Positions 49,459 to 63,068 of a stretch of 64,000 nt of DNA are shown here, in pieces. The stretch is from assembly GCF_002159915.1 (NCBI RefSeq), contig NZ_NFJP01000020.1, positions 1 to 64,000 of the forward strand. The letters run 5' to 3'. The translations under genes were made by a program, and so were the position numbers. Below the pieces are notes generated by a model. That model was not told where the DNA came from and did not search any database. It was given only the letters and a program-made list of their open reading frames with translations. The DNA comes from Gordonibacter sp. An230. GTDB lineage: Bacteria; Actinomycetota; Coriobacteriia; Coriobacteriales; Eggerthellaceae. Positions within the stretch are counted from its first letter, which is position 1; each line of letters begins with the position of its first letter.

Positions 49459-49484
49459 GGTTCCCGTCCGAAAAAGGGGGACCT
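49458..49484. terminator. bidirectional hairpin between modC and tetR
   Basis: AGGTTCCC (49458-49465) pairs with GGGGACCT (49477-49484), one G-U pair, around an 11-base loop containing AAAAA. On the minus strand CCCCCTTTTT falls within the structure. It separates two convergent genes. Confidence 0.4.
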
Positions 49485-49504
49485 TGGCAGAACGTCTCCG
49501 CGCC

Positions 49505-50062
49505 TCAAGGTTGCGGCGTGGAGAGCCTCATGAGGGTGTCCGCTTTCGCCGCGACTTCGGAGGGGGTCATGTCTGGCCGGTCGTTCAGCCAATGGCGAAC
49601 GATGCCGATCCATCCCGACGTCACGTAGTGGAAGAGGAATTCGACGTCCTCGTGCGATAGGGAGGGGTTGGCGCGCTCCCACTCCTCATGGTAGGCGTCA
49701 AACAGATACGCGATCATGCGGTCGATGAAGTTTCCCTCGCCTCGGTTCTCGAAGGTCGTGCGGACGAGGGTGCGATGCTCGTCGATGAAGCCGATGATCA
49801 TCGGCGAGATGTCGAACACGTTGGCCGGAAGTTCGCGCAAGCGCATTTCAAGACCGTACATTAGGTCATCTTCCATGGCCCTGAGCAGAGCGAACGGGTC
49901 GGAATAATATTTGTAGAACGTCTTGCGCGAAACGCCTGCGGCTTCGCAGATGTCTTTCACGGTGATGTCGGAGACGGGCTTCGATTCCAGCTCGTCGATG
50001 AAAGACTGGAATAGGCATTGCTTGGTGTAGCGCTGTCGCGAATCCTTCGGTTCTCGGTACAT
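49505..50062 (-). CDS. TetR-family regulator divergent from the KAS III operon
   Basis: A 185-residue regulator with an N-terminal helix-turn-helix (VSDITVKDICEAAGVSRKTFYKYYSDPFALL, about 30-60) and a C-terminal domain of the type found in DhaS-like TetR proteins (FIDRMIAYLFDAYHEEW, FLFHYVTSGWIGIVRHWL). It is transcribed away from the glycosyltransferase operon, and an AT-rich 230-base control region lies between them. It probably controls both units. The ligand is unknown. Confidence 0.9.
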   Translation of the reverse strand: MYREPKDSRQRYTKQCLFQSFIDELESKPVSDITVKDICEAAGVSRKTFYKYYSDPFALLRAMEDDLMYGLEMRLRELPANVFDISPMIIGFIDEHRTLVRTTFENRGEGNFIDRMIAYLFDAYHEEWERANPSLSHEDVEFLFHYVTSGWIGIVRHWLNDRPDMTPSEVAAKADTLMRLSTPQP

Positions 50063-50181
50063 AGTGCCGTCTTCCTCTCTTCGTACGGGCCGAATCGCCC
50101 GTACTGGCTTTCCCGTGCGCGCCTATCTTCTCACAAGAGCGGCCCGATTCTCCTTTTATCTACATTTGTCTCCGAAAATTC

Positions 50182-50210
50182 TTGCTATTTTATAGACATA
50201 TGTTACTATA
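50182..50210 (+). promoter_or_regulatory. promoter of the KAS III operon with an overlapping palindrome
   Basis: TTGCTA (50182-50187), 16 bases, TACTAT (50204-50209). The region 50191-50210 has outer TATAG and CTATA arms around the palindrome ACATATGT, so a dimeric repressor bound here would block polymerase. ACTATA is repeated at 50205 and 50221. The area is strikingly AT-rich against a GC-rich background. Confidence 0.6.
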
Positions 50211-50295
50211 GATACATAAGACTATAAAGTAGGAAGGCGAATCAGGAAGGGCGGAGAGGAAACGGCGGCGACCTTCCGAAGAGAAAGGCGGGGTC

Positions 50296-51507
50296 ATGCG
50301 TACGATCACGGTGTTCACCATTCCGGCTACGGGGCATGTCAATGCGATGCTGGCTGTGGTCGAGAGGCTTACGGTGCGCGGGGACAGGGTGATAGCCTAT
50401 TCGGGGGAGCGTTACAAGGGGGTTTTGGAGTCCGTGGGGGCTGAGTTCAGGGCCTATCCTTTTTCAGAGGGCGAGGTCGACCTGAAAGACGGTTCCAACG
50501 TGCTTCGATTCTACGAGCGGGTGCTGAACTGCACGCTCGTCATGCTGGACGATCTGATCTGCGCGGCGCGTGCCGACGCCCCCCGCTTGATCGTGCACGA
50601 CAGCGCCGCGCATTGGGGTTCTCGCGTGGCGGAGCTCCTCGGAGTCCCCGCCGTGTCGTTCTGCTCGTTCGTGTCGGTGAGCAGGATTGCGAGCGTGTCG
50701 GGAGTGGCGTACGCGCGGAGGTTTTGGAGGAGCTCTCTCGAGGGCGCGCCGTGCCTGTCCTCGGCGCGGCGCGCGAGCAAAGAGCTTGCGCGCCGATATG
50801 GATTCGAAGGGTTTAGCCTCGTCGATGTGCTGCTCAACCCCCATTCGCTGCGCGTGTTCTCGTTCTCGCGCGTCATGCAGCCTGGGGGCATGGGATTTCG
50901 AAGCCCTTGCTTTTTCCTGGGACCCTCAAGTGCTTTGCGCCCATCAGGAGGAAAGGGTTGCGTTCCGCCGCTGCCCGAAGGGCCGAGGGCCTACGTGTCG
51001 CTCGGCACGGTCTTCAACGGCGACCCCGAGCTTCTGCGTCTCATGATGGAAGGGGTGGCCGATGCGGGCTATACTGGCGCCTACGTGAGCGATGGGGCGG
51101 GGGCGCTCGGTTGCGAAGGGGACGTGCTCATGGCGGGTTGCCGTTTCGCTGTTCGACGCTCTTTCGATCAGCTTGAAGCGCTTCGCAACGTCGACGTGTT
51201 CCTGACTGCCGGAGGGATCAACAGCCTGTCCGAGAGCATAAGGGCCGGCGTCCCGTGTCTGATGTTCCCCCGTCAGGGAGAGCAGATGCTCTCATGCCGT
51301 CGCGCCGAGAAACTGGGCTTCGGCATCGTCGCACGGCCTGATCGGCCCCTCGCTTTGCAGGTCGAGCAAGCACGCGTCCTCAGGTCGACGTGGAACGAGG
51401 GCATGGCCGCCCAGGTGGGCGAGGTGCGTCTCGAGCGGCTGATGTCCCGGTTGGACGCTTGCATGGGCGCGGCGGTCGCAGCCCAGCAGGGCAGGAGGAT
51501 CGCATGA
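50296..51507 (+). CDS. UGT/MGT-type glycosyltransferase
   Basis: A 403-residue GT-B glycosyltransferase of family GT1, related to macrolide and UDP-glucuronosyl transferases that attach a sugar from an NDP-sugar to a small lipophilic acceptor. The N-terminal acceptor domain has the catalytic-His motif TGHVNAML (His14). The C-terminal donor domain has YVSLGT and the sugar-nucleotide signature region TAGGINSLSESIRAGVPCLMFPRQGEQ, in which the usual first His-Gly-Gly reads Ala-Gly-Gly. The ATG follows GAGAAAGGCGGGG. It leads a five-gene overlapped operon. Confidence 0.85.
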   Translation: MRTITVFTIPATGHVNAMLAVVERLTVRGDRVIAYSGERYKGVLESVGAEFRAYPFSEGEVDLKDGSNVLRFYERVLNCTLVMLDDLICAARADAPRLIVHDSAAHWGSRVAELLGVPAVSFCSFVSVSRIASVSGVAYARRFWRSSLEGAPCLSSARRASKELARRYGFEGFSLVDVLLNPHSLRVFSFSRVMQPGGMGFRSPCFFLGPSSALRPSGGKGCVPPLPEGPRAYVSLGTVFNGDPELLRLMMEGVADAGYTGAYVSDGAGALGCEGDVLMAGCRFAVRRSFDQLEALRNVDVFLTAGGINSLSESIRAGVPCLMFPRQGEQMLSCRRAEKLGFGIVARPDRPLALQVEQARVLRSTWNEGMAAQVGEVRLERLMSRLDACMGAAVAAQQGRRIA

Positions 51508-52499
51508 GGACCGCTCTCGTCACCGGCGCCACCGGGTTTTTGGGGGGATACGTGGTAAGGGAGCTGCTCCCTTCGTATCGCGTGCGCGCGCTTGGCCGCG
51601 ACGAGGCGCGCGGCGCAAGCCTTAAGGCCGAGGGGGCGAGGTTCTGCCGTGGCGACCTGCGCGACAAAGGGTCGTGCCGCCCGTTCTTCGAGGGCGTCGA
51701 CGCCGTCGTCCATGCGGGGGCGCTCTCCTCGGCATGGGGCCGATGGGAGGACTTCCGCTCGGTCAACGTGGAGGGCACGCGCGCCGTTGCGGAGCTCTGC
51801 GTGGAGCACGGGGTGCGAAGGCTCGTGTTCGTGTCGTCGCCGAGCATCTACGCGCAGCGCCGAGACCGGCTTGGCGTGCGGGAAGACGAGTTCGATCCCG
51901 AGAACCGCCTCAACGGGTACATACGGTCCAAGATCATGGCCGAAAAGCTTTTGGAGGGCTTTGCCGAGCGCGGGCTCGAAGTGGTCGTCATGCGGCCGAG
52001 GGGGCTCATCGGGGCCGGCGACACCAGCATCGCGCCGCGCCTGTTGCGAGCTTGGAGGGAGGGCGGCATACCCCTGTTCGACGGAGGAAGGGCGATCGTC
52101 GATCTGACTTGCGTTGAAAACGTGGCGCGTGCGTGCAGGTTGTGCATGGAGGCCCCGGAAGCCCCGGGGCGGGCGTTCAACATCACGAACGGGGAGCCCA
52201 TGGAATTCCGCGAAGCGGCCTCGATGCTGCTCGACGAGCTGGGCCTCGAGCACCGGTTCCGTCGTTTGCCGCGCGTTCCGATGTACGTGCTGGCGGGCGC
52301 ACTGGAACTTGTCTGCCGGGCGGTCGGGTCGCAGGCCGAGCCGCTGCTGACGCGTTACGTGATTTGCACGCTCGGCTACAGCCAGACGCTCGACATAGAG
52401 GCGTCTCGCCGCATCTTGGGGTACGAGCCTTACGTGACGCTCGCGGAGGGGGTGAGGCGCTATGCCGAGCACCGGGCCCTGTGCGATGCGCGGCGCTGA
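51504..52499 (+). CDS. NAD(P)-dependent epimerase/3-beta-HSD-type reductase (OleD-like)
   Basis: A 331-residue extended short-chain dehydrogenase. The nucleotide-binding motif GATGFLG (residues 8-14) and the catalytic YIRSK (Tyr139, Lys143) are intact, and the C-terminal part resembles the 3-beta-hydroxysteroid dehydrogenase/OleD branch (LTCVENVARACRLCMEAPEAPGRAFNITNGE). OleD reduces 2-alkyl-3-ketoacids made by OleA; the neighbouring KAS III makes this analogy attractive. The start overlaps the glycosyltransferase stop in ATGA, with GCAGGAGG upstream. A sugar epimerase role for the glycosyltransferase donor is an alternative. Confidence 0.8.
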   Translation: MRTALVTGATGFLGGYVVRELLPSYRVRALGRDEARGASLKAEGARFCRGDLRDKGSCRPFFEGVDAVVHAGALSSAWGRWEDFRSVNVEGTRAVAELCVEHGVRRLVFVSSPSIYAQRRDRLGVREDEFDPENRLNGYIRSKIMAEKLLEGFAERGLEVVVMRPRGLIGAGDTSIAPRLLRAWREGGIPLFDGGRAIVDLTCVENVARACRLCMEAPEAPGRAFNITNGEPMEFREAASMLLDELGLEHRFRRLPRVPMYVLAGALELVCRAVGSQAEPLLTRYVICTLGYSQTLDIEASRRILGYEPYVTLAEGVRRYAEHRALCDARR

Positions 52500-53382
52500 C
52501 GGGGGCTGCTGCGCGTCGGATGGCCGCGCGCGCGTCGAGCGGCTCGTGCTTCTGCGATGCGGCAGCTGCTCCAATCGGACATCCCGGATGTTCAAAGGGC
52601 GCTCGAGGGACGAGGGCGTGCGGGAGTTCCCCGCTCTGGCCGCGTATTTCGAGCACAGCAAGCTCGGAGGGTTTTTGTTCGACGCGGGGTACTCGCAAGC
52701 GGTGCGCGAGAACGGCGTCGTCTCGGCGGTGTACGGGCTTTTGAATCCCGTGACGATGCGCCCAAAGGATTCGATCCCTCTGAGGCTTTTGCGGTTCGGG
52801 ATCGACCCCGCGCAGGTGAAGGGGATCGTGCTGTCCCACGCCCATCCCGACCACATGGGCGGGGCGAGCTTCTTTCCGGACGCCTCGATCATCCTCTCTT
52901 CCGAGGCGGCCGCCGCCATCGAGCGCCCGTCCGTTCGCGATCTGGTGTTCGCCAACATGGCTCGCGCGCTTCCCCGGTCCAGAAGGGCGCTCGGCCCGCC
53001 CGTTGGGCACGAGCTGCTGTCCCGCTACTTCGGCGCGGTGTTCGACGTGTTCGGCGACGGCGCGGCGTTCGCGGTCTCCTTGGAGGGGCATGCGGTTGGC
53101 CAGATCGGCCTCTATCTGCCCTGCCAGCGCGTGCTGCTCGCGGCGGATGCGGCGTGGGGTGCCGAGTTCCTCGACCTTGCAGGGGAGATGAAGCTTCTGC
53201 CCCGGCTCGTTCAACGCGATTTCGACGCATATTGCGCCACGGCCCGAAGCCTCGCCCGGATGAAGGCCGACCACCCGGAGATAGACATCGTGTTTTCCCA
53301 CGACCTGTTCAAGGAGGGACCGTATGCTGAAGACGGCCAGCGTGATGCTGTACTATCTGAAATATCGGCGACGACGCGATAA
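52462..53382 (+). CDS. metallo-beta-lactamase-fold hydrolase
   Basis: A 306-residue MBL-fold protein. The metal motif HAHPDH (126-131) is intact, followed by AADAAWG (third region Asp) and the late histidine in FSHDLF. The N-terminal 45 residues are cysteine-rich (Cys7, 16, 17, 33, 36). ATG 52462 has a strong GGAGGGGG nine bases upstream and overlaps the reductase gene by 38 bases; ATG 52486 is an alternative without a ribosome site. Likely a thioesterase, lactonase or ester hydrolase acting on the pathway's acyl intermediate. Confidence 0.8.
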   Translation: MPSTGPCAMRGADGGCCASDGRARVERLVLLRCGSCSNRTSRMFKGRSRDEGVREFPALAAYFEHSKLGGFLFDAGYSQAVRENGVVSAVYGLLNPVTMRPKDSIPLRLLRFGIDPAQVKGIVLSHAHPDHMGGASFFPDASIILSSEAAAAIERPSVRDLVFANMARALPRSRRALGPPVGHELLSRYFGAVFDVFGDGAAFAVSLEGHAVGQIGLYLPCQRVLLAADAAWGAEFLDLAGEMKLLPRLVQRDFDAYCATARSLARMKADHPEIDIVFSHDLFKEGPYAEDGQRDAVLSEISATTR

Positions 53383-54667
53383 GGGGAACCGCGCCGCGTT
53401 CGACCGGTGGCAGCGCAGACAGGTTCGACGATGCGTCCGGAGAGCGGCGAGGAGCATTCCTTACTATCGCGGCATGGGGAAGCTTCCTGTCGACGAGCTC
53501 CCCACGATGGACAAGAGCCGCTTCATGGACTCGTTCTCTTCGCTGAACCGCGTCGGCGTTGCTGAAAAGGAAGCGATCGGGTTCGCCCTGGAGGGCGAGC
53601 GCGCGCGGTCGTTCTCGGACAAGCTGGGGCGGGTGAGCGTCGGCCTGAGCTCCGGCACGTCGGGTCGGCGCGGCGCGTTTCTCGTGAGCGATCGGGAGCG
53701 TTTCATGTGGGCGGGGTTCGTGCTGGCCCGTCTCGTGCCGGGCGAGCTGCTCAAAGGGCATCGCGTCGCGTTCTTCATGCGAGCAAACAGCAATCTGTAC
53801 CAGGCCGTCGCGTCGAAGCGCTTGCGGTTCGAGTTCTTCGACATACTGAAGCCGCTCGACGCGCACGTCGAGCGGTTGAACGAGCTCGATCCGACCATAC
53901 TGGTCGGGCAGCCGTCCGTGCTGCTGGAGCTGGCCCGCATGCGCGCGAGCGGGCAGGTGGGCATCGACCCCGGCCGATTGGTGTCGATAGCCGAAGTGCT
54001 CGAGCCGCAAGACGAAAAGCGGATACTCGAAGCGTTCGACGTGCCGTTCGTGCACCAAGTCTACCAGTGCACCGAAGGGTGCCTCGCCGTGACGTGCGAC
54101 CATGGATCTTTGCATATGAACGAGGACGTGGTGAGCGTCGAGCGGTCGTATCTCGACGACCGCAGGTTCTCTCCGATCATAACCGACTTCACGCGGAGGA
54201 CGCAGCCCATCATCCGCTATCGCCTCGACGACGTGCTTGTGGAGAACGCCGAGCCCTGCCCATGCGGTTCCTGCTTTTTGCGCCTGGAGCGCATTGAGGG
54301 AAGGCTGGACGACGCGCTGCGCTTCCCTGCGGTCGGCGGAGGCGAGATCCAGGTGTTTCCGGACATCGTTCGCCGATGCGTGCTGATGGCGGGGGAGGTG
54401 TCCGAGTACCGGGTGGTCCAGGTTCCCGACGGCGGGCTCACGGTGCACGCATCGGTTGGAGAGGACGTGCGACGATCCATACGAAGCGAGTTCGAGAGGT
54501 TGGCGGACGCCCAGGGGTTCGAGATGCCCTCCCTCGAGTTCGCGGACTACAAGCCGCATGGGGGAGGAAAGATGAGGCGGGTCGAGCGGAGGAGGGCCGA
54601 CGACTCGCTGTCGGGAGAAGGCTCGCCGACCTCGGTGGTAAACGGGAGCGATAGGAGGACGATATGA
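53324..54667 (+). CDS. adenylate-forming enzyme, PaaK/F390-synthetase-like
   Basis: A 447-residue protein of the phenylacetyl-CoA ligase/coenzyme F390 synthetase group, which activates a carboxylate as an acyl-adenylate. Landmarks are SSGTSGRRG (109-117, phosphate-binding loop), QVYQCTEGCLA (the adenine-site region), PIIRYRLDDV with the conserved Asp, and a short C-terminal domain ending in GGGKMRRV. Two cysteines in PCPCGSC suggest a metal site. The start has AAGGAGG upstream and overlaps the hydrolase gene by 59 bases. Related hypothetical adenylate-forming enzymes are known beside KAS III and MBL genes in other bacteria. Confidence 0.8.
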   Translation: MLKTASVMLYYLKYRRRRDKGNRAAFDRWQRRQVRRCVRRAARSIPYYRGMGKLPVDELPTMDKSRFMDSFSSLNRVGVAEKEAIGFALEGERARSFSDKLGRVSVGLSSGTSGRRGAFLVSDRERFMWAGFVLARLVPGELLKGHRVAFFMRANSNLYQAVASKRLRFEFFDILKPLDAHVERLNELDPTILVGQPSVLLELARMRASGQVGIDPGRLVSIAEVLEPQDEKRILEAFDVPFVHQVYQCTEGCLAVTCDHGSLHMNEDVVSVERSYLDDRRFSPIITDFTRRTQPIIRYRLDDVLVENAEPCPCGSCFLRLERIEGRLDDALRFPAVGGGEIQVFPDIVRRCVLMAGEVSEYRVVQVPDGGLTVHASVGEDVRRSIRSEFERLADAQGFEMPSLEFADYKPHGGGKMRRVERRRADDSLSGEGSPTSVVNGSDRRTI

Positions 54668-55602
54668 ACGAGTCGAAAGGCATGAGGATCGCGGGGAGCG
54701 GATACGCCCTGCCCGTCCGCAAGGTGACGTTCGGAGACCAGGTGCGCTATCGTCTGGCGCATCCCGGAGGCTATCTCGCCCTTGTCGAGGAGGCGGTCGA
54801 GTGCGCATTGGAATCCGCCGGAGCGACGATCGGGGACGTCGACTGCATCGTGGCGGGCATGGCCACGCCGTTGAAGGCGATCCCGTGCAATGCCGCGCTG
54901 GTCCACGAACGGGTCGGCGCGGTCGAGGGAACCCCGGCCTTCGACGTCAATTCCAGCTGCACGAGCTTCGTCACGGCGCTCGACATGGCATCGTGCCTCA
55001 TCGCGTGCGGCCGGTACAGCCGCATCCTCATCGTGTCGGGCGACATCGCCTCCGCGGCGCTGAATCCGGAGGAACGCGAGAGCTACGAGCTGTTCTCCGA
55101 CGTGTGCACGGCGTTTGTCGTGGAGCCCTCCTCCGACGGCGCGGGCGTCGAGTACTCCAGGCAGGCCACGTGGTCGGAGGGGATCAGCTGCACCGAGATA
55201 CCGCGCGGAGGGTCGTTGTCGAGCGCGCATGCGATCACCGACGAGAACCGCAGCGAATACTATTTCACCATGGACGGACTGCGAACGGCGCGCCTTGCGA
55301 CGAAAAAGCTCATCCCGTTCGTGGGCGAATGCCTTTCCGATTGCGGCGTGTCCAGAGACGACGTGCCGTTCATCGTTCCCCATCAGGCGAGCCGCATGCT
55401 CGGCGCCATCATGAAGAGGCTCGGCGTGGCGTCCGGCGGCTACATAGACGTGGTCCGGGAGTACGGCAACATGGTGTCCGGGTCCATTCCCTTCGCCTTG
55501 TGCTTGGCCATGGAGAGCGGTCGCGTTCTTCCGGGCCAGCGCGTGATGCTGTTGGGGACCGCAGCGGGGCTCACCGCGAACTTCATGTTGCTCCGACTCT
55601 GA
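54664..55602 (+). CDS. beta-ketoacyl-ACP synthase III-type condensing enzyme
   Basis: A 312-residue thiolase-fold enzyme of the FabH/OleA type. The catalytic triad is complete: Cys99 (NSSCTSF), His240 (VPHQASRM) and Asn269 (EYGNMVSGSIP). The Ser after Asn in NSSC replaces the usual Ala. Such enzymes catalyse a decarboxylative or head-to-head Claisen condensation of acyl-thioesters. The start overlaps the adenylate-forming gene stop in ATGA and has AGGAGG upstream. Its place beside a tailoring reductase, ligase and glycosyltransferase suggests secondary metabolism, not the housekeeping fab pathway. Confidence 0.88.
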   Translation: MNESKGMRIAGSGYALPVRKVTFGDQVRYRLAHPGGYLALVEEAVECALESAGATIGDVDCIVAGMATPLKAIPCNAALVHERVGAVEGTPAFDVNSSCTSFVTALDMASCLIACGRYSRILIVSGDIASAALNPEERESYELFSDVCTAFVVEPSSDGAGVEYSRQATWSEGISCTEIPRGGSLSSAHAITDENRSEYYFTMDGLRTARLATKKLIPFVGECLSDCGVSRDDVPFIVPHQASRMLGAIMKRLGVASGGYIDVVREYGNMVSGSIPFALCLAMESGRVLPGQRVMLLGTAAGLTANFMLLRL

Positions 55603-55675
55603 TCTCGCGTGCTTTGCCCGTTTGAGCCTGCCGAGCGGAGGGGCCCTTGACCGGCGCGGAACGAACCCGAGCTGC

Positions 55676-55710
55676 GCGGAGGGCGCGTCGTCATGCGAGG
55701 CGTCCTCCGC
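55676..55710. terminator. hairpin between convergent operon and surface-protein gene
   Basis: GCGGAGG (55676-55682) and CCTCCGC (55704-55710) form a 7-bp stem around a 21-base loop that has some internal pairing. It lies in the 234-base gap between two convergent genes. No T-run follows, so the assignment is tentative. Confidence 0.35.
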
Positions 55711-55836
55711 GAGGGGGTTCGCGCCGATGCCGGTCGGCCGGTTTGCAAGCAGGCTCGATGCCGCTGCCGACTCAAGTCGGCTTCCTCGCCGCTCGGCCTT
55801 CTTCTGGCGCTGTTCGCGCGCGGGAAGGGACATCCC

Positions 55837-58800
55837 TCACAGGCGCGGTCTGCGCGCCGGCTTTGCGGGCGCGATGCCCCGGGTGTTGGCGACGAGCGCT
55901 GCCAGAGCGGTGACGACGAGGGAGCCCAGTGCGATCGCGGCCAGCGCGGCGGATCTCCGGTCGCACGGGTCGCCGAGGGGTGCGAGAGGCTCGCTTGCGG
56001 CCGTTCCGCCGTCCGCGCCGTCGGGCGCGTTTCCTCCTCCTTCCCCGTCCTCGGCGGGATGATCCGGGTCGGGGCTCGGTTCGGGTCCGGGTTCCGGGCC
56101 GGGATCGGGCTGCATGTAGCTGTTGTGGAACACCACGCGGTTTTGGAGGGCGTCCTCCCCGGCGGGGTACTCCACGACGACGGCCATCCGGTGCCCGCCG
56201 TCGGCGCCCTCTTCTTGCACGACGTGCACCGTGATGGTCTGCACGCGCGCATCGTATGTCATCCCGTCCAGCGTGGCCGTGGAGCCGTCCTCGCTGTAGC
56301 GCGCTCCCTCGGGGATCGTTTGCCGCACCTCGTAGTAAAACGTCTGTCCCGCCAGATCGTCGTCATGCTCGATCTCGGCTGACCCGAACGTGAACAGCCC
56401 GCCCGCATTGCCCGCTTCGGAGAGCTTGGGCCGCGGCGCGCTCTCGGCGTTGTCGCCTACGGCTTTGATGCTAAACGTGAACAGGTCGTTTTCCAGAGGC
56501 CGTGTGCCGCTCTTGTCGGTGTATTCGACCGCGCCGTCGAAGGAGGCGAACGCGGAGTTCGAGTAGGTGTTGCCGAAGCGCGCGGTCAGGCCGCATCCGC
56601 TGGCGTCTTCGGCGGGTTCGCCCGCGTCGTCGGTGACGGCGGCGAGCGTGGGCGAGGCGACGAGATGGCCCTGTCCGTCCGAGGTCACGTCCACGGTGAG
56701 CGTGTAGAGCGCGCTCGAGTAGTCGAGGCCGCTCGCCGCGTTGCCGCCCGCATCCGCGGCCTGCTCGAACAGGCTGTACTCGTAGGTGCCCGGCTCGGTG
56801 AACGCGATGTCGCCGAACGTTTTCTCCACGGCGCTGCCCGCGGTGACGGCGTTTTGCGCAGCCGCGTCGAAGGCGCCGATGGAGATCGTGCTGGACGGCG
56901 GCAGCGGCGCACCTGACGCGAGGGGCTTTCCGTCTGCGTCCACGGCGTTTGCGGCGCGTAGCGCGAACGTGAACGAGTCGCCCTCTTGCCAATCGCGTCC
57001 GGCGAGCACCTTTTGCACGGTGAGTCCGGACACCACAGCGGCTTCGTCGTCGTAGCTGTTTCGGAACGTCGGCTCCTCGCTAATCGCGAACGTGAGCGCG
57101 CCCGTGCCGTCCGTGTCGGCGCCCATCACGTCCACGCGGTGCCGGACGGTGTCGTAGGTTACGCCGCCTGCGGAAAAACCGGTGTCGGCCGTGGCGTTTC
57201 CGGGAATGCTCTCGCTCACGAGGAACGAGCGTCGCACCTCGTCTCCCAGCGGCACGCTCGCGTCGATGCTTGGGAAGGAGACCGTGCCGTCCGCATCGTT
57301 GCGGGCGACGATCTCCCGACCGACGGGGGCCTCGGTGTCGGGGTCGATCTCCTGCGCGGTGAACGCGAACGCGCCGGCTTCGAGCTCTGTTCCCGTGATG
57401 CTCTTGTGGGCGACGAGCGAGAAGGCGCCCGACGACGTGCGGTATTGGTTCACGAACGCAATGCCGGGCACGGGCTGGCCGTCCACTCGGAACGAGATTG
57501 ACGAGACGGACAGCTGCCCGCGCGCATCCTGCGCGACGGTGACGGTCGCCTCGTAAGCGCGCTCGTCGTAGGCGACGCCCGGCAGCGGCTCGGTTCCGTC
57601 GGGCGCGTGCTCCCGCACCACGTAGGTGTAAGTGCCCGGCTCGCTCGCTTGCAGGCCGCGCAGCGTGAAGCCGGTGGCGACGCCCGCGCTCGCGGCACGG
57701 TTCACGGTCGTGACGGGATTTCCGTTCGCATCGAGGACGGGCGTGGTCCCGTCGGCTTCGTACAGCTGGAACGCGAACTCGCCGGCCGCTTCGTTGCGGC
57801 CGCGCAGCACTTCCGTGCCCGCAAACTCGATGGCGGCGGGCACGTACTCCTTGCGGTTGGTGAAGGATGCGACAGCGGTTTCGTTGGCCGTTACGGTCCC
57901 TTCCGCGCCGACGGCTTCCGTTGAGTAGCCTTCGGCAGCAAGGCTCTGCTCGCTTACCGTGTAGGCGGTCTGCGCAGGCAGGTCCTCGATGGTGAGCGTG
58001 GCGGGGGCGGGCAGCTCAACGCGCGCGAGGCCGTTCGCGAACACGACGGTCTGCGGGGAGGCGGTGCCGTCCGGGCCTTCGAGTGCGGCCTCGAACGCGC
58101 CTGCGAGGGGCGTGCCCTGCCCGTCGCGCGCGTCGATGGCGAACGCGAACGTGCGGCCTGCCGCAGCTTCGTCCTCGGCGGCGTTGCCGGCTGGTTGCTT
58201 CGTGATCGCAAGGTTGCCGAACGCGTCCTTAACGTTCGCAAAATACACGCCCACGGCGGCCTCTGAGGCGAGCGCGCCCTCGTGCACGTATCCCTCCTGC
58301 AAACTGCCGCTTTGGTCGCTGCCGGAATAGATGGTGTAGCCGTCCGCGATAAGGTCTTCCGCACCGATCTCGGTCACGGTGAAGGCTGAGTCGGAATCCA
58401 GCCCTTCGATGAGCAGGCCCTCGTTGTGGCGGAGCGTCACCTCTGCGGTTCCTGCGGTGCCGGATGCTGCGCCTGGGCCGTCGGCAGCGCCCGCCGTCTC
58501 ATCGTCCGCATCCGGCGCTCCGCCCATGGTCGACGTGCGGGCGAATGTGACGCGTTCGGATACGGTGGAGCCGTCGGGGAGGTAGCGCACGGCATCGAAT
58601 GCGCGTTCCGTCTCCTCGGGTGCGCTGTGCGCGAACAGGTCCTCCACATCGACGGCGAAGGAGTAAGAGGCCTGCTTGTCGCCTGCATTGCCGCCCACCA
58701 GCTTCGCGATGCCCAGCGCCCCTGGCTGTTTCACGTTGGTAAAGCGTGCCAAGGCCGGTTCAGGGCCGATCACGCCTTCGGCGTTCTCCCTCTTCACGAT

Positions 58801-61800
58801 ATAGTGGTCGGAGGCGTAGTCGGCCTCTTCGATGACGTAGCGGGTGCCTTGCAGTAGCTTGTCCGCGATGAGCGTCTGGCCGCCTTTCAACCCCACGGTG
58901 AAGCGGCCCTGCGGATCGAGCGGGGTCTGGCCGGGAACAACGGTGCCGTCTGCATCGGTTACCGTGTAGTCTACCGTGCCAGAGAGCGGTTCTCCCGTGC
59001 CGTCTTCGAGCGTCACGGTGAAGTCGAACGTTTTACCGGCGTCGGCCTGCGTGCCCGACACCTGTTTGGAGAGGTTCAAAGTGCCGTAGAGCCAGCGCGC
59101 GTTCGTGAACGTGAGCGTGTCCGCTTGCTCGGCCTCCTCGATGCGGCCGGATCCGTCGCTCTCTTCCGCCGCGCCGCCGTCCGTCGCTTTCCGCACGGTC
59201 GTCTCGTATCCGTCTGCGTCGGTTTCCCACGCGACGTAAGCGGTGCCCACCGGCAGCCCGCTCACGGTGATGGACTGGTCGGATGCGAGGAACATCGGCG
59301 CACCGCCCTCCAACACAAGGTCTCCGTTCTCGTCGGCCATGGCAATGCCGTCGTACGTGCCCTCTGCGCTTCCGCCCAAGGACTGCGTGTAGGGGAACTC
59401 GCCTGAGACGGGCGCGCCCTCGGCGTCCGCGAGGCGCACCGCGAAGGCGAAGGTGCGCGAGGGGTCGGCGCCGTTGCCCTCCACGCGTTTCGACAGCGTG
59501 AGCGCGCCCGCCTGCTTCGTGTTGGTGAACGCCGTCTCGGTGCGCTGGTCGGCGGTGATCGTGCCGCCCGCTATGTCGCCTGCGCGCGCTCCGTCGTCGG
59601 TTGCTCCGTCCGATAGCGCTTCGTCTTCTCCATCCGCCTCCGTCCTCACGACGAACGACGGCTTGAACCCGTGCGCTGCCGCATCCTGCTCCTCCACGGA
59701 GAACCGGGTGCCCTCGGGCAGGTCGGTAAGCGTGAGGGACTGCCCGTCGGCCAAGCTTAACTGAACGGCTCCATGCTCGTCGAGCGAGAGGATTCCGCTT
59801 TCCGCGCCGCCTTCGCCCTTTGCGGCCACCGTGCCTGAAAGCGGCGAGCCCGCCTTGTCGGCCAGCGTGATGCGGAAGGTGAACTCCTGCGCGCGGTCGG
59901 CTGCGGTGATCTGCGAGGATGCTCCGCCCGCCGCTAAGGTCTTCGATACGGTCAGCGATCCGGCTTTCTGCGCGGGCGAAAGCGTCAGCACTCCGTTGTT
60001 GCCGAGGCGAGCCGAGAGCAGCGTTCGGTCGGCCGCTTGGTACTCGGAGACGGAGATGGTTTTCACGTAGGGTGCGGTGGCCGTGGCGTTGGGATGCTTC
60101 GCGTAATCGGCCAGCACGGTCGATGCGCTGAACTTCGGCGTTCCCGCCAGCACGAAGTAGTTCCCCTGCGCATCGGCGTGGAAATGACGGGCGATCTCGT
60201 CGCCCGAGAACGCCACCTCGTAGGGGTCGAACGCGCGAACGGCCGTGGCGGGCGCGCCTGCGGCGCTGGACAGACCGCTTGCCGTGTAGTACGTGTCGAG
60301 GAAGTAATAGGTTTCACCTGTTTGCGGCGACGATGTCAGCGGCTCGAGCTGGCTTTCGGCGGGGTGTCCGTCGGAGGGGGCGACCTCCCCGGGTTTGAGC
60401 TGGAACAGAGGAGCGTCTTTCGTGAACGTGTAATAGGAGTTCGCGGCGTTCGCGAGCGAGTTCATAGTCGATTCGGCCACGATGCCCTCTGCGCCGCCCT
60501 TTTGGAACGCGCCCGCGTACAACAGGAAGTTTCCAAAGGCGTCGGTGGGCGCGTCGTCGCCTAAAACGGCGTGTAGCTCGTCGACGCTCACTTCCTCGCC
60601 CGCGGCCAGTCGGTCAGCGAGCTTGGCTACGTCGCCGCGCGGACCCACCTCGTACACGAGCCGCAGGGGGTAGGTGTCGAGGGCGTCTCCTTCGAGCGTC
60701 ATCTCGGCCGTGCCGTCGGTTCGCTCGGTCACGTACGCCTCGCGTGCGGGGATGCTGTCGGGAGGGATGCTGAGCAGCACGCGCTGGCCGCCGTCGTCGA
60801 GATCCGTCTCCACCATGACCATGAAGTCGTACAAGGGAACGTCGGAGCCGGTGTATTGGTTCTCAAGGTTTCCGATGTAGAAGTAAGTTTGGCACACGGC
60901 GGTGGCTCCGGCCGCTCGGGCGGCCTCGATTCGCTGCCGTGTGGCCGCATCCACGCTTTGCTCCGTCTGCCACCTCCCGGTTTTCGCAGCGGCCACCTCC
61001 GCGTTTCCCGCGAAGCGATAGGGATTGCCCTCGCCTGCCACCAACTGGTGGTCGGCATTCACATAGTAGGCGGCGAAGTTCGAATAACCGTCCGAGGCCG
61101 ACCATGCCACCTGCCCTTCTCCGAGCGCTTCGGAAAGCAGGTAATACGCTGACCACCAATCGATGCCGTAGCGTAGCTGCAGGAAGCGGAGCACGAGCGA
61201 GAGCTGGTCGGCCGCCTCGAGATCCCATGGATCGGCGAACGCGCTCGCTATTGCCTGAGCGGCCTTCGATCCGTCGAGCAGCCGTCCGGCGAACTGGATG
61301 CCTCTCACGCGCTTCACGTTCATGAACGCGCCCAGGTCGTCCTCCATGTTGAATCGGTCGGCAGGGTCGTCGGGCGCAGCGGCGTTCTCGTTGACGGGGG
61401 AGTGGTACTCAATGCGGAGGATGGCGTCCACCGCGGCATCGAACGCGCCGTCGAGCGCAGCGGCATCGAGGGCCGAAAACGAGCGGTCCGCCGCTGTGAA
61501 CTGAAAATCGTCCCGCACGCTCACAAGCCCCCGCACGGGGGCGGGGAAGTCCACGTTCAGCATGCGCAAGCCGCCCAGTCCCGCGCCGTACAGCGGCAGG
61601 GTGACGTTCGGCTCCCCCTGTTCGGCGGCTTCTGCGTACAACGCGCGGGCTTCCTCGATGTTCTCCCTCAGGTTCACGGTGGTCCCGCCCGCGGTGTCCT
61701 CAACTGTCATCGACTTCTGCACGGAGGCCGGTTGCAGCACGTAGTCGCTGATTCCCGATGTGCGGAAGCCGACGGTGTAGAGGCTCAGATCTTGGCCGGA

Positions 61801-62826
61801 GGACCGGTAGGCGTCGTTCACGCGCGCGGCTTCGCTTTGCATGGTGAGCAGCTGGGCCAGCGCGACGTCCGATCCAAATCCCACGACGTGGTCGTCGCTG
61901 GGAAACGCGCCCAAAAAGCCGTTCGCTTCGGGCTCGTCGCCGGTGAAAGCGGGCGGGTTCGCGATGTCGGCGTTCGCTGCGGGCGCGGCGCCGACGCCCA
62001 TGAGAACGAGGTCGGGCGCACGGGGGGTGCCGTTGGCGGACTGCGCGGCCTCGACGAGCAGGTTCCCCGCTTCGTGCAGCGCTAGCTGGGGGTAGGAGTA
62101 GCTGGCGAAGCGTCCCTCGGCGGTTTCGACGCCGGGCGTTTCGGGGGAGGCGGCGATAACGAGGCCGTTGCCGCCGTCGGGAAGGTTGCGGGCGAACTTC
62201 ACGTAGCGGCCTTCGGCGTCGGGTGCGTATGAGTCGAGCGGCAGCATCACCGTGGTGTGCAGGTTGTACCCTATCACAGCCACGCGGTTTTTGCCGTTTA
62301 CGGACTCTTCCTCCATGAGGCGGCCGATGGCGCCGTTCAGCGCGTCGGCGAGGTGCTCCGCATGCGTCTTGCCGTCGTAGGCGAGGGAGTCCAACGTCGA
62401 GTTCAGGGACACGACGAACACGGTGTCGTGCGGGTTCTCCTGCTCGGGACGCACGGTTGACGCTGACGACATGGCGGAAAGGCTCACGAGGAAGTCTTGG
62501 TCGGGATGTTCGAGCTCGCCGGCCGCGATGCCCGCCGCCTCGGCGTCGGCCGCGCTGGCATACACCGACTTGTCCACCCAGAGACGGCCGGCCTCCTCCG
62601 TGGAGTAAACGAGCTCTCCCGCGGCATCTTGCAGGTCGAAGACGTCCATCCAGCTGTTGGCGGTGGAGGGGTCCGTCACTTTCGTGATCGGCTGGGACGT
62701 GCGCGCGCCGTCGTTTGCGTTTCGCTCTTCGTTGGCGGGTCCGGCCAGTGCGCTGATGGGGAAAAGCGTGGCCGCCAGCAGGCAGGCGCAGGCGATGCGC
62801 AGGGTCTTCGGGAGGGATGTTCTCAT
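55837..62826 (-). CDS. giant isopeptide-domain surface protein (pilin/adhesin type)
   Basis: A 2329-residue secreted protein. A signal peptide (about 1-28) precedes a von Willebrand A-like region (about 130-400) whose metal motif is degraded: FVVSLNSTLDS replaces DxSxS. A linker domain to about residue 950 follows. Five repeats of roughly 120 residues open with a GxLxxSK-type start (GALTLSKRVEGNG, YGTLNLSKQVSG and others) and end in FTN-K. Four Spy0128-like pilin isopeptide domains come next, ending near PDPGPEPGPEPSPDPD. The C-terminus has a helix and basic tail, but LGDPCD stands where LPxTG is expected. ATG 62826 after CGAGG. It is likely a cell-wall or membrane-anchored adhesin; no sortase is adjacent. 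Confidence 0.85.
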   Translation of the reverse strand: MRTSLPKTLRIACACLLAATLFPISALAGPANEERNANDGARTSQPITKVTDPSTANSWMDVFDLQDAAGELVYSTEEAGRLWVDKSVYASAADAEAAGIAAGELEHPDQDFLVSLSAMSSASTVRPEQENPHDTVFVVSLNSTLDSLAYDGKTHAEHLADALNGAIGRLMEEESVNGKNRVAVIGYNLHTTVMLPLDSYAPDAEGRYVKFARNLPDGGNGLVIAASPETPGVETAEGRFASYSYPQLALHEAGNLLVEAAQSANGTPRAPDLVLMGVGAAPAANADIANPPAFTGDEPEANGFLGAFPSDDHVVGFGSDVALAQLLTMQSEAARVNDAYRSSGQDLSLYTVGFRTSGISDYVLQPASVQKSMTVEDTAGGTTVNLRENIEEARALYAEAAEQGEPNVTLPLYGAGLGGLRMLNVDFPAPVRGLVSVRDDFQFTAADRSFSALDAAALDGAFDAAVDAILRIEYHSPVNENAAAPDDPADRFNMEDDLGAFMNVKRVRGIQFAGRLLDGSKAAQAIASAFADPWDLEAADQLSLVLRFLQLRYGIDWWSAYYLLSEALGEGQVAWSASDGYSNFAAYYVNADHQLVAGEGNPYRFAGNAEVAAAKTGRWQTEQSVDAATRQRIEAARAAGATAVCQTYFYIGNLENQYTGSDVPLYDFMVMVETDLDDGGQRVLLSIPPDSIPAREAYVTERTDGTAEMTLEGDALDTYPLRLVYEVGPRGDVAKLADRLAAGEEVSVDELHAVLGDDAPTDAFGNFLLYAGAFQKGGAEGIVAESTMNSLANAANSYYTFTKDAPLFQLKPGEVAPSDGHPAESQLEPLTSSPQTGETYYFLDTYYTASGLSSAAGAPATAVRAFDPYEVAFSGDEIARHFHADAQGNYFVLAGTPKFSASTVLADYAKHPNATATAPYVKTISVSEYQAADRTLLSARLGNNGVLTLSPAQKAGSLTVSKTLAAGGASSQITAADRAQEFTFRITLADKAGSPLSGTVAAKGEGGAESGILSLDEHGAVQLSLADGQSLTLTDLPEGTRFSVEEQDAAAHGFKPSFVVRTEADGEDEALSDGATDDGARAGDIAGGTITADQRTETAFTNTKQAGALTLSKRVEGNGADPSRTFAFAVRLADAEGAPVSGEFPYTQSLGGSAEGTYDGIAMADENGDLVLEGGAPMFLASDQSITVSGLPVGTAYVAWETDADGYETTVRKATDGGAAEESDGSGRIEEAEQADTLTFTNARWLYGTLNLSKQVSGTQADAGKTFDFTVTLEDGTGEPLSGTVDYTVTDADGTVVPGQTPLDPQGRFTVGLKGGQTLIADKLLQGTRYVIEEADYASDHYIVKRENAEGVIGPEPALARFTNVKQPGALGIAKLVGGNAGDKQASYSFAVDVEDLFAHSAPEETERAFDAVRYLPDGSTVSERVTFARTSTMGGAPDADDETAGAADGPGAASGTAGTAEVTLRHNEGLLIEGLDSDSAFTVTEIGAEDLIADGYTIYSGSDQSGSLQEGYVHEGALASEAAVGVYFANVKDAFGNLAITKQPAGNAAEDEAAAGRTFAFAIDARDGQGTPLAGAFEAALEGPDGTASPQTVVFANGLARVELPAPATLTIEDLPAQTAYTVSEQSLAAEGYSTEAVGAEGTVTANETAVASFTNRKEYVPAAIEFAGTEVLRGRNEAAGEFAFQLYEADGTTPVLDANGNPVTTVNRAASAGVATGFTLRGLQASEPGTYTYVVREHAPDGTEPLPGVAYDERAYEATVTVAQDARGQLSVSSISFRVDGQPVPGIAFVNQYRTSSGAFSLVAHKSITGTELEAGAFAFTAQEIDPDTEAPVGREIVARNDADGTVSFPSIDASVPLGDEVRRSFLVSESIPGNATADTGFSAGGVTYDTVRHRVDVMGADTDGTGALTFAISEEPTFRNSYDDEAAVVSGLTVQKVLAGRDWQEGDSFTFALRAANAVDADGKPLASGAPLPPSSTISIGAFDAAAQNAVTAGSAVEKTFGDIAFTEPGTYEYSLFEQAADAGGNAASGLDYSSALYTLTVDVTSDGQGHLVASPTLAAVTDDAGEPAEDASGCGLTARFGNTYSNSAFASFDGAVEYTDKSGTRPLENDLFTFSIKAVGDNAESAPRPKLSEAGNAGGLFTFGSAEIEHDDDLAGQTFYYEVRQTIPEGARYSEDGSTATLDGMTYDARVQTITVHVVQEEGADGGHRMAVVVEYPAGEDALQNRVVFHNSYMQPDPGPEPGPEPSPDPDHPAEDGEGGGNAPDGADGGTAASEPLAPLGDPCDRRSAALAAIALGSLVVTALAALVANTRGIAPAKPARRPRL

Positions 62827-63012
62827 GATGCCTCGATTCCGTGCCCCTTCGGAAGGGGCGTTCGTTGGCGAGAGGGTTTTGGCCAGTGTAACAGCCGATT
62901 CCGCTTCGCCTCCGTTTCGGAACCGTCCCGACACCTCCTGTTTGCCGAGAGCAGGCACCGAGGCCCGGGCCCGGTATCGGAGGGTGTCGTCGGTAGGCTC
63001 TTCGTGGGGCTT

Positions 63013-63034
63013 CGCCGGTTTGTTCCAACCGGCG
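63013..63034. other. hairpin in the divergent region before moaA
   Basis: CGCCGGTT (63013-63020) and AACCGGCG (63027-63034) form a perfect 8-bp palindrome with a 6-base loop, midway between the divergent surface-protein and moaA genes. It is a candidate operator or leader structure. Confidence 0.45.
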
Positions 63035-63068
63035 CCGGATCACTGGTGCGCAGACGGGGGATTTGCTT

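Follow-up and report, generated by a model that had tools for sequence, protein, structure and literature searches.

We identified an operon of five overlapping genes in a 64,000-nucleotide stretch of the Gordonibacter sp. An230 genome (contig NZ_NFJP01000020.1, positions 1 to 64,000; referred to below as the window). It encodes a GT1-family glycosyltransferase (GT) followed by a short-chain dehydrogenase/reductase (SDR), a metallo-beta-lactamase-fold (MBL) hydrolase, an adenylate-forming ligase of the TIGR02304 family and a beta-ketoacyl-acyl carrier protein synthase III (KAS III). Together with a divergent TetR-family gene and a palindrome between the TetR and GT genes, the operon spans positions 49505-55602. 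We give about even odds to the reading that it specifies a pathway dedicated to condensing, reducing, hydrolysing and activating acyl groups, acquired horizontally and controlled by TetR, with a predicted glycosylated lipid product. All enzymes belong to known families; what may be new is their conserved combination. A preliminary description of this locus had listed the same five overlapping genes, all of which are present as described, and had predicted a fatty-acid-derived, glycosylated product; a lipid-like, glycosylated product is still the best reading. The substrates, the order of the reactions and the product proposed below are what we infer from the gene content, its conservation and the enzyme features.

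The GT (50296-51507) and SDR (51504-52499) genes, both on the forward strand as are the three that follow, overlap by 4 nt (ATGA), and so do the ligase (53324-54667) and KAS III (54664-55602) genes. The overlaps are longer between SDR and MBL (52462-53382; about 38 nt) and between MBL and ligase (59 nt), and the MBL gene may in fact begin further downstream, for example with the ATG at 52486. Gene overlaps of a similar kind recur in relatives of the operon. A scan of GTDB genomes gave at least 560 confirmed ligase relatives, and the loci of the best 80 of these were fetched. Among these 80 and the plasmid loci, GT1-SDR-MBL-ligase-KAS III was the commonest order (35 loci including the window), with further variants in which genes are fused, split or displaced. 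The hosts of this order include Lachnospiraceae, Oscillospiraceae, Clostridiaceae, Enterococcus and many oral Streptococcus, and the GT gene is placed last in Acholeplasma and in a Campylobacteraceae metagenome-assembled genome (MAG). Since the identical gene order recurs across several phyla, the arrangement is not due to chance. The order and overlaps kept in many lineages, together with SDR-MBL fusions, bear out the earlier suggestion that the five genes belong together functionally. Conservation of the set holds for Clostridia, streptococci and others, and not for the Coriobacteriia, the class to which Gordonibacter belongs.

The conserved part of the operon is smaller than five genes. All four genes of the KAS III-SDR-MBL-TIGR02304 core are found together in unrelated taxa. 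A second order, KAS III-(ATP-grasp)-SDR-MBL-ligase-(GNAT), is common in Bacillales, and KAS III-SDR-MBL-ligase cores without a GT occur in Bacillales and in Alpha-, Beta- and Gammaproteobacteria, in Alphaproteobacteria with a divergent TetR gene and a sulfotransferase gene. In Escherichia coli this core was found in 674 of 5,426 complete genomes (~12%, about one in eight). In E. coli ABU 83972 (locus L160, 5001-11882) it forms a seven-gene island between narI and tRNA-Tyr, with genes for a PAP2 phosphatase, a fatty acid hydroxylase and a desaturase after the core. Fusobacterium carries genes for an SDR, a GT21-like glycosyltransferase and an unknown protein, followed by SDR-MBL-ligase-KAS III. 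Because lineages keep the core and swap the partner genes, the unit is a four-enzyme core with exchangeable partners, and the glycosyltransferase is the exchangeable head-group enzyme beside it. The head-group enzymes vary with lineage (GT1, GT21/ceramide-glucosyltransferase-like, GT4, sulfotransferase, ATP-grasp/GNAT). The GT4 enzyme is nearest to alpha-monoglucosyldiacylglycerol synthase, and some of these families act on lipids or hydrophobic alcohols. The GT1 of the window, which is UGT/MGT-like and predicted to transfer a head-group sugar, shares 35-37% identity with its counterparts in the closest clostridial operon copies. In Streptococcus sanguinis (L096, L108, L123) the four-gene core lies after a ribosomal protein S4-like gene and has no adjacent GT1. 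A family of 215-residue proteins with no Pfam or NCBIfam match (L040, 4076-4723; L065, 4359-5006) adjoins the GT21-like glycosyltransferase gene in core clusters of Fusobacterium, Enterococcus and Paenibacillus caui.

The KAS III retains the intact Cys-His-Asn triad noted in the preliminary description (Cys99-His240-Asn269), which is invariant in 86 core sequences. It is not the housekeeping FabH. Its score against the FabH model TIGR00747 is 151.9 bits, versus a cut-off of 292.1 which another gene of the genome passes. The last position of the FabH HQAN motif is Ser in all 86 core sequences versus Asn in 11 of 11 FabH proteins, and the clade of the window KAS III lacks the N-terminal FabH segment bearing Trp32. 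Clustering with FabH had been named beforehand as the result that would speak against a dedicated pathway; in the KAS III tree the core falls outside the FabH clade (98/97). An identity as OleA was rejected as well. Glu117 of OleA crosses the dimer and deprotonates the acyl chain, PpyS requires the equivalent Glu105, and MxnB and CorB carry Val (PMC4578411). At this position, which was fixed from PDB 3fk5 with a numbering offset of 20 from tagged constructs, the window protein has Ile73 and the core proteins have Ile or Leu (86/86), versus Glu in all nine OleA sequences fetched from Actinobacterial Ole clusters. The core also lies outside the OleA clade (100/100). Without a glutamate base to act on a plain acyl thioester, the enzyme is expected to need a pre-activated nucleophile, and we infer a malonyl- or beta-ketoacyl- donor.

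The nearest solved relatives of the KAS III are MxnB by sequence and CorB by fold (27-28% identity), and its structural model (pLDDT 93) has CorB, FabH, PqsD and MxnB as best solved fold matches. In the tree the core groups with MxnB/CorB (94/96), which serves as a lead only because moving MxnB/CorB to FabH was not rejected (approximately unbiased test, p-AU 0.136). The core enzymes share with MxnB/CorB, which act in myxopyronin and corallopyronin synthesis, the Cys-His-Asn triad without a Glu base and the HQxS motif. Unlike these pathways, the operon has no modular polyketide synthase and includes steps of reduction, hydrolysis and ligation that pyrone synthesis can do without. The best NCBIfam model of the KAS III is PRK07204 (NF005541; 241 bits, cut-off 402), which, like TIGR02304, is a family model without an assigned pathway.

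The reductase is an extended SDR of the Epimerase/3beta-HSD family with an intact YxxxK motif. It had been described as OleD-like, and OleD is indeed its best NCBIfam match, at 185.8 bits far below the cut-off of 580 bits. Since OleD proteins from Actinobacterial Ole clusters also score below 580, more weight lies on the clade test, in which the core reductases form a clade of their own apart from OleD. The MBL hydrolase has an intact dinuclear metal site with invariant ligands (HxHxDH, H210, D229 and H280). Family searches matched it best to N-acyl homoserine lactone (AHL) lactonases, and lactonases are also what the fold of its model (pLDDT 90) resembles. AHL lactonases have an active-site Tyr three residues past their Asp metal ligand (ASDAIY in GcL), a position at which 37 MBL sequences have an invariant Trp (Trp232). 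This replacement argues that the substrate is likely to differ from that of AHL lactonases. The MBL and SDR steps appear tied together because the two domains are fused in several Clostridia (both domains in five loci, L053, L058, L062, L064 and L111; partially in a sixth, L072). Separately, the Pseudomonas plasmid pBASL58 (L043, 6139-8263) carries an MBL-ligase pair without the KAS III and the OleD-like SDR, which suggests that these two enzymes can function apart from the remaining core.

The ligase matches TIGR02304 (F390 synthetase-related) at 464 bits (cut-off 251.9), is PaaK-like and has intact adenylation motifs (SSGTSG, YQxTEG and Lys416). It is not an OleC. A long ligase open reading frame in locus L045 was examined as a possible fusion and proved to be an upstream extension of the reading frame. 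An acyl carrier protein (ACP) gene directly follows the KAS III gene in four relatives among the Firmicutes (L063, L079, L088 and L121). In L079 (6234-17074), a MAG locus, it is followed by genes for AccB, AccC, an AccDA fusion, FabD, FabF and GT1. The only FabF match in this MAG is that of the cluster, and no FabH above the cut-off and no FabZ were found in what is an incomplete assembly. These findings suggest that the malonyl-ACP machinery serves the cluster, with the caution that MAG incompleteness demands. The pathway is probably ACP-linked. Of 11 host genomes tested, 8 have a separate FabH above the cut-off, which makes the core KAS III an extra enzyme.

In the pathway that we propose, the KAS III would join an acyl group held on Cys99 to malonyl-ACP in a decarboxylative, FabH-like reaction, or to a beta-ketoacyl-ACP as in MxnB/CorB. 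The SDR would reduce the beta-keto group to a hydroxyl, and the MBL enzyme would hydrolyse a thioester or lactone of the resulting intermediate. The ligase would activate a carboxylate, either to load the starter acid or to activate the finished hydroxy acid, and the GT1 would place a sugar on a hydroxyl or carboxyl to give a glycolipid.

The alternative that survives best, although we consider it unlikely, is a single-chain special case of this pathway resembling rhamnolipid synthesis. KAS III and SDR would produce a 3-hydroxyacyl-ACP, the MBL enzyme would free the 3-hydroxy fatty acid, the GT1 would glycosylate its hydroxyl and the ligase would esterify or recycle acids. RhlB glycosylates the hydroxyl of a 3-hydroxy fatty acid, and the two systems would share their last step if the GT1 acts on an acyl-derived hydroxy acid. 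The triad needed for decarboxylative condensation with malonyl-ACP, the ACP, FabD and acetyl-CoA carboxylase (ACC) genes adjoining the core in L079 and the GT1 family of the GT all fit this possibility. However, the KAS III groups with enzymes that condense two chains, and ordinary fatty acid synthesis already supplies 3-hydroxyacyl-ACP, which leaves unusual chains as the only case that calls for a KAS III of its own. The operon also differs from the rhamnolipid system in lacking RhlA and in having dedicated genes for condensation, reduction, hydrolysis and ligation.

An improbable second alternative follows the synthesis of the Pseudomonas quinolone signal, in which a ligase, a KAS III and an MBL hydrolase (PqsA, PqsD and PqsE) likewise serve one pathway. 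The ligase would couple CoA to a starter acid that is not a fatty acid, such as an aromatic one, and the KAS III would extend the thioester with malonyl; the MBL enzyme would act as a PqsE-type thioesterase, and a small aromatic or polyketide product would be reduced by the SDR and glycosylated by the GT. The PaaK-like ligase and the presence of PqsD among the top KAS III fold matches are compatible with this scheme. Against it, PqsE is only at rank 48 among the structural matches of the MBL enzyme (TM 0.41), behind many lactonases, the operon adds an SDR and a GT, and genes near the core in relatives encode lipid enzymes (a desaturase, a fatty acid hydroxylase and lipid glycosyltransferases).

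Still less probable, and the least supported of the biosynthetic alternatives, is the mechanism to which the preliminary description had likened the operon, the OleABCD route of Xanthomonas, Micrococcus and Nocardia. Two fatty acyl thioesters would be joined head to head by the KAS III, the SDR would reduce the product, the ligase would form a beta-lactone, the MBL enzyme would open it and the GT would glycosylate the result. The classes of step (condense, reduce, adenylate) are shared, the SDR belongs to the wider OleD/3beta-HSD neighbourhood, and an Actinobacterial OleA-GT-OleC-P450-OleD cluster with a predicted glycosylated beta-lactone has been described (PMC7064751). As a mechanism the parallel is not supported, since the KAS III has no Glu117 and, like the SDR, lies outside the Ole clades, and neither the alpha/beta-hydrolase OleB nor the beta-lactone synthetase OleC is among the operon genes; TIGR02304 stands in for OleC and, as the preliminary description had correctly noted, an MBL hydrolase for OleB. 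Detoxification or salvage, in which an external lactone or acyl signal would be glycosylated, reduced and hydrolysed under a ligand-sensing TetR, would suit the lactonase-like MBL enzyme, the macrolide-inactivating members of the GT1 family and the TetR control, but is very improbable given a C-C bond-forming KAS III, ACP and ACC neighbours that point to synthesis, and the Trp in place of the lactonase Tyr.

Several points weigh against the dedicated lipid pathway. No ACP gene is present in the window itself, and the modelled MBL fold is closer to lactonases than to thioesterases. The acceptor of a GT1 is not readable from sequence. The hosts of L079, L088 and L121 have no further FabH above the cut-off, and for this reason their KAS III might double as an enzyme of ordinary fatty acid synthesis. 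The uncertain MxnB/CorB grouping comes from a tree that left out PqsD, DarB, PpyS and other KAS III types, and the 80 loci compared, being those closest to the ligase of the window, are rich in Streptococcus and not independent of one another.

The gene set, the ligase name, the E. coli locus and the Streptococcus carriers had no description that we could find in the open-licence papers searched, and none of these papers mentioned TIGR02304 or 'F390 synthetase-related'; as the search covered open-licence papers only, it speaks but weakly for novelty. Among published ideas, the Actinobacterial Ole cluster with a GT mentioned above comes closest. Tentatively, and with less confidence than in the pathway itself, the core may stand for a new, widespread class of bacterial lipids with lineage-specific caps (sugar, amino acid or sulfate) in gut Clostridia, oral streptococci, fusobacteria and the E. 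coli genomes that carry it. If one scaffold does bear differing head groups, common human-associated bacteria would share a class of small molecules that has so far gone unrecognised, with carriers that include oral streptococci, gut Clostridia, Fusobacterium and E. coli LF82 and ABU 83972. The widespread ligase family TIGR02304, to which no role has been assigned, would then gain a function. As carriers are culturable and genetically tractable, the product should be findable by gene removal combined with lipidomics.

The TetR-family repressor gene (49505-50062, reverse strand; TetR_C_8 type) is divergent from the operon and has a GC content of 57%, compared to 67% for the window. The 233-bp gap between the TetR and GT genes is AT-rich (50% GC) and contains an imperfect palindrome (50181-50236) with two 28-nt arms, complementary at 22 of 28 positions and without a spacer. 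Of 2000 dinucleotide-shuffled versions of this gap, none reached 22 matching positions. The divergent TetR gene and the palindrome described earlier are both present, except that the interval given for the system began at 50063, the start of the intergenic region, and left the TetR gene just outside. As for the claimed palindromic promoter, the palindrome is significant and no sigma-70 consensus promoter was found. The palindrome is probably the TetR operator together with the promoter region. At 88 further loci examined, the cluster has no homologue of this TetR next to it.

The distribution in related genomes and the insertion site point to horizontal acquisition. Only one of 41 near genomes, namely this one, has a TIGR02304 match above the cut-off. 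Among 398 Coriobacteriia genomes, two have a ligase match at E <=1e-30, one of them (L187) without the rest of the core, and the full gene set is restricted to Gordonibacter sp. An230; a Coriobacteriia-specific pathway was rejected on this count. Other Actinomycetota ligase matches (~34% identity) have no core around them and were not accepted as this pathway. The window KAS III nests in a fully supported clostridial set, and the SDR also falls with clostridial sequences. A comparison with L195, L196, L197 and L198 delimited a variable insertion site downstream of modC (49459-63062). It is empty or nearly so in other genera, holds other cargo in genomes of the same genus and holds the TetR gene and operon here. 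The modC-moaA spacing is 140 bp in G009 and ~1.2 kb in G005, which represent two other genera of the family, compared to 13.6 kb in the window, where the TetR gene, the operon and a gene for a 2373-residue surface protein lie between the two. The variable modC-moaA site together with the nesting among clostridial sequences argues that the operon was acquired horizontally, and the simplest reading is transfer from a Clostridia-like donor. The surface protein (55837-62958, reverse strand), which has repeated DUF7601, FctA (Spy0128-like isopeptide) and DUF5979 domains, is common to genomes of the same genus, near modC and moaA. In one of these (G002) it lies downstream of modC, and the stretch in between lacks every part of the operon but has genes for a LuxR-type regulator and a flavoprotein; in G001 other genes for secreted or surface proteins follow modC (cargo genes of both genomes identified from sequence by eye).

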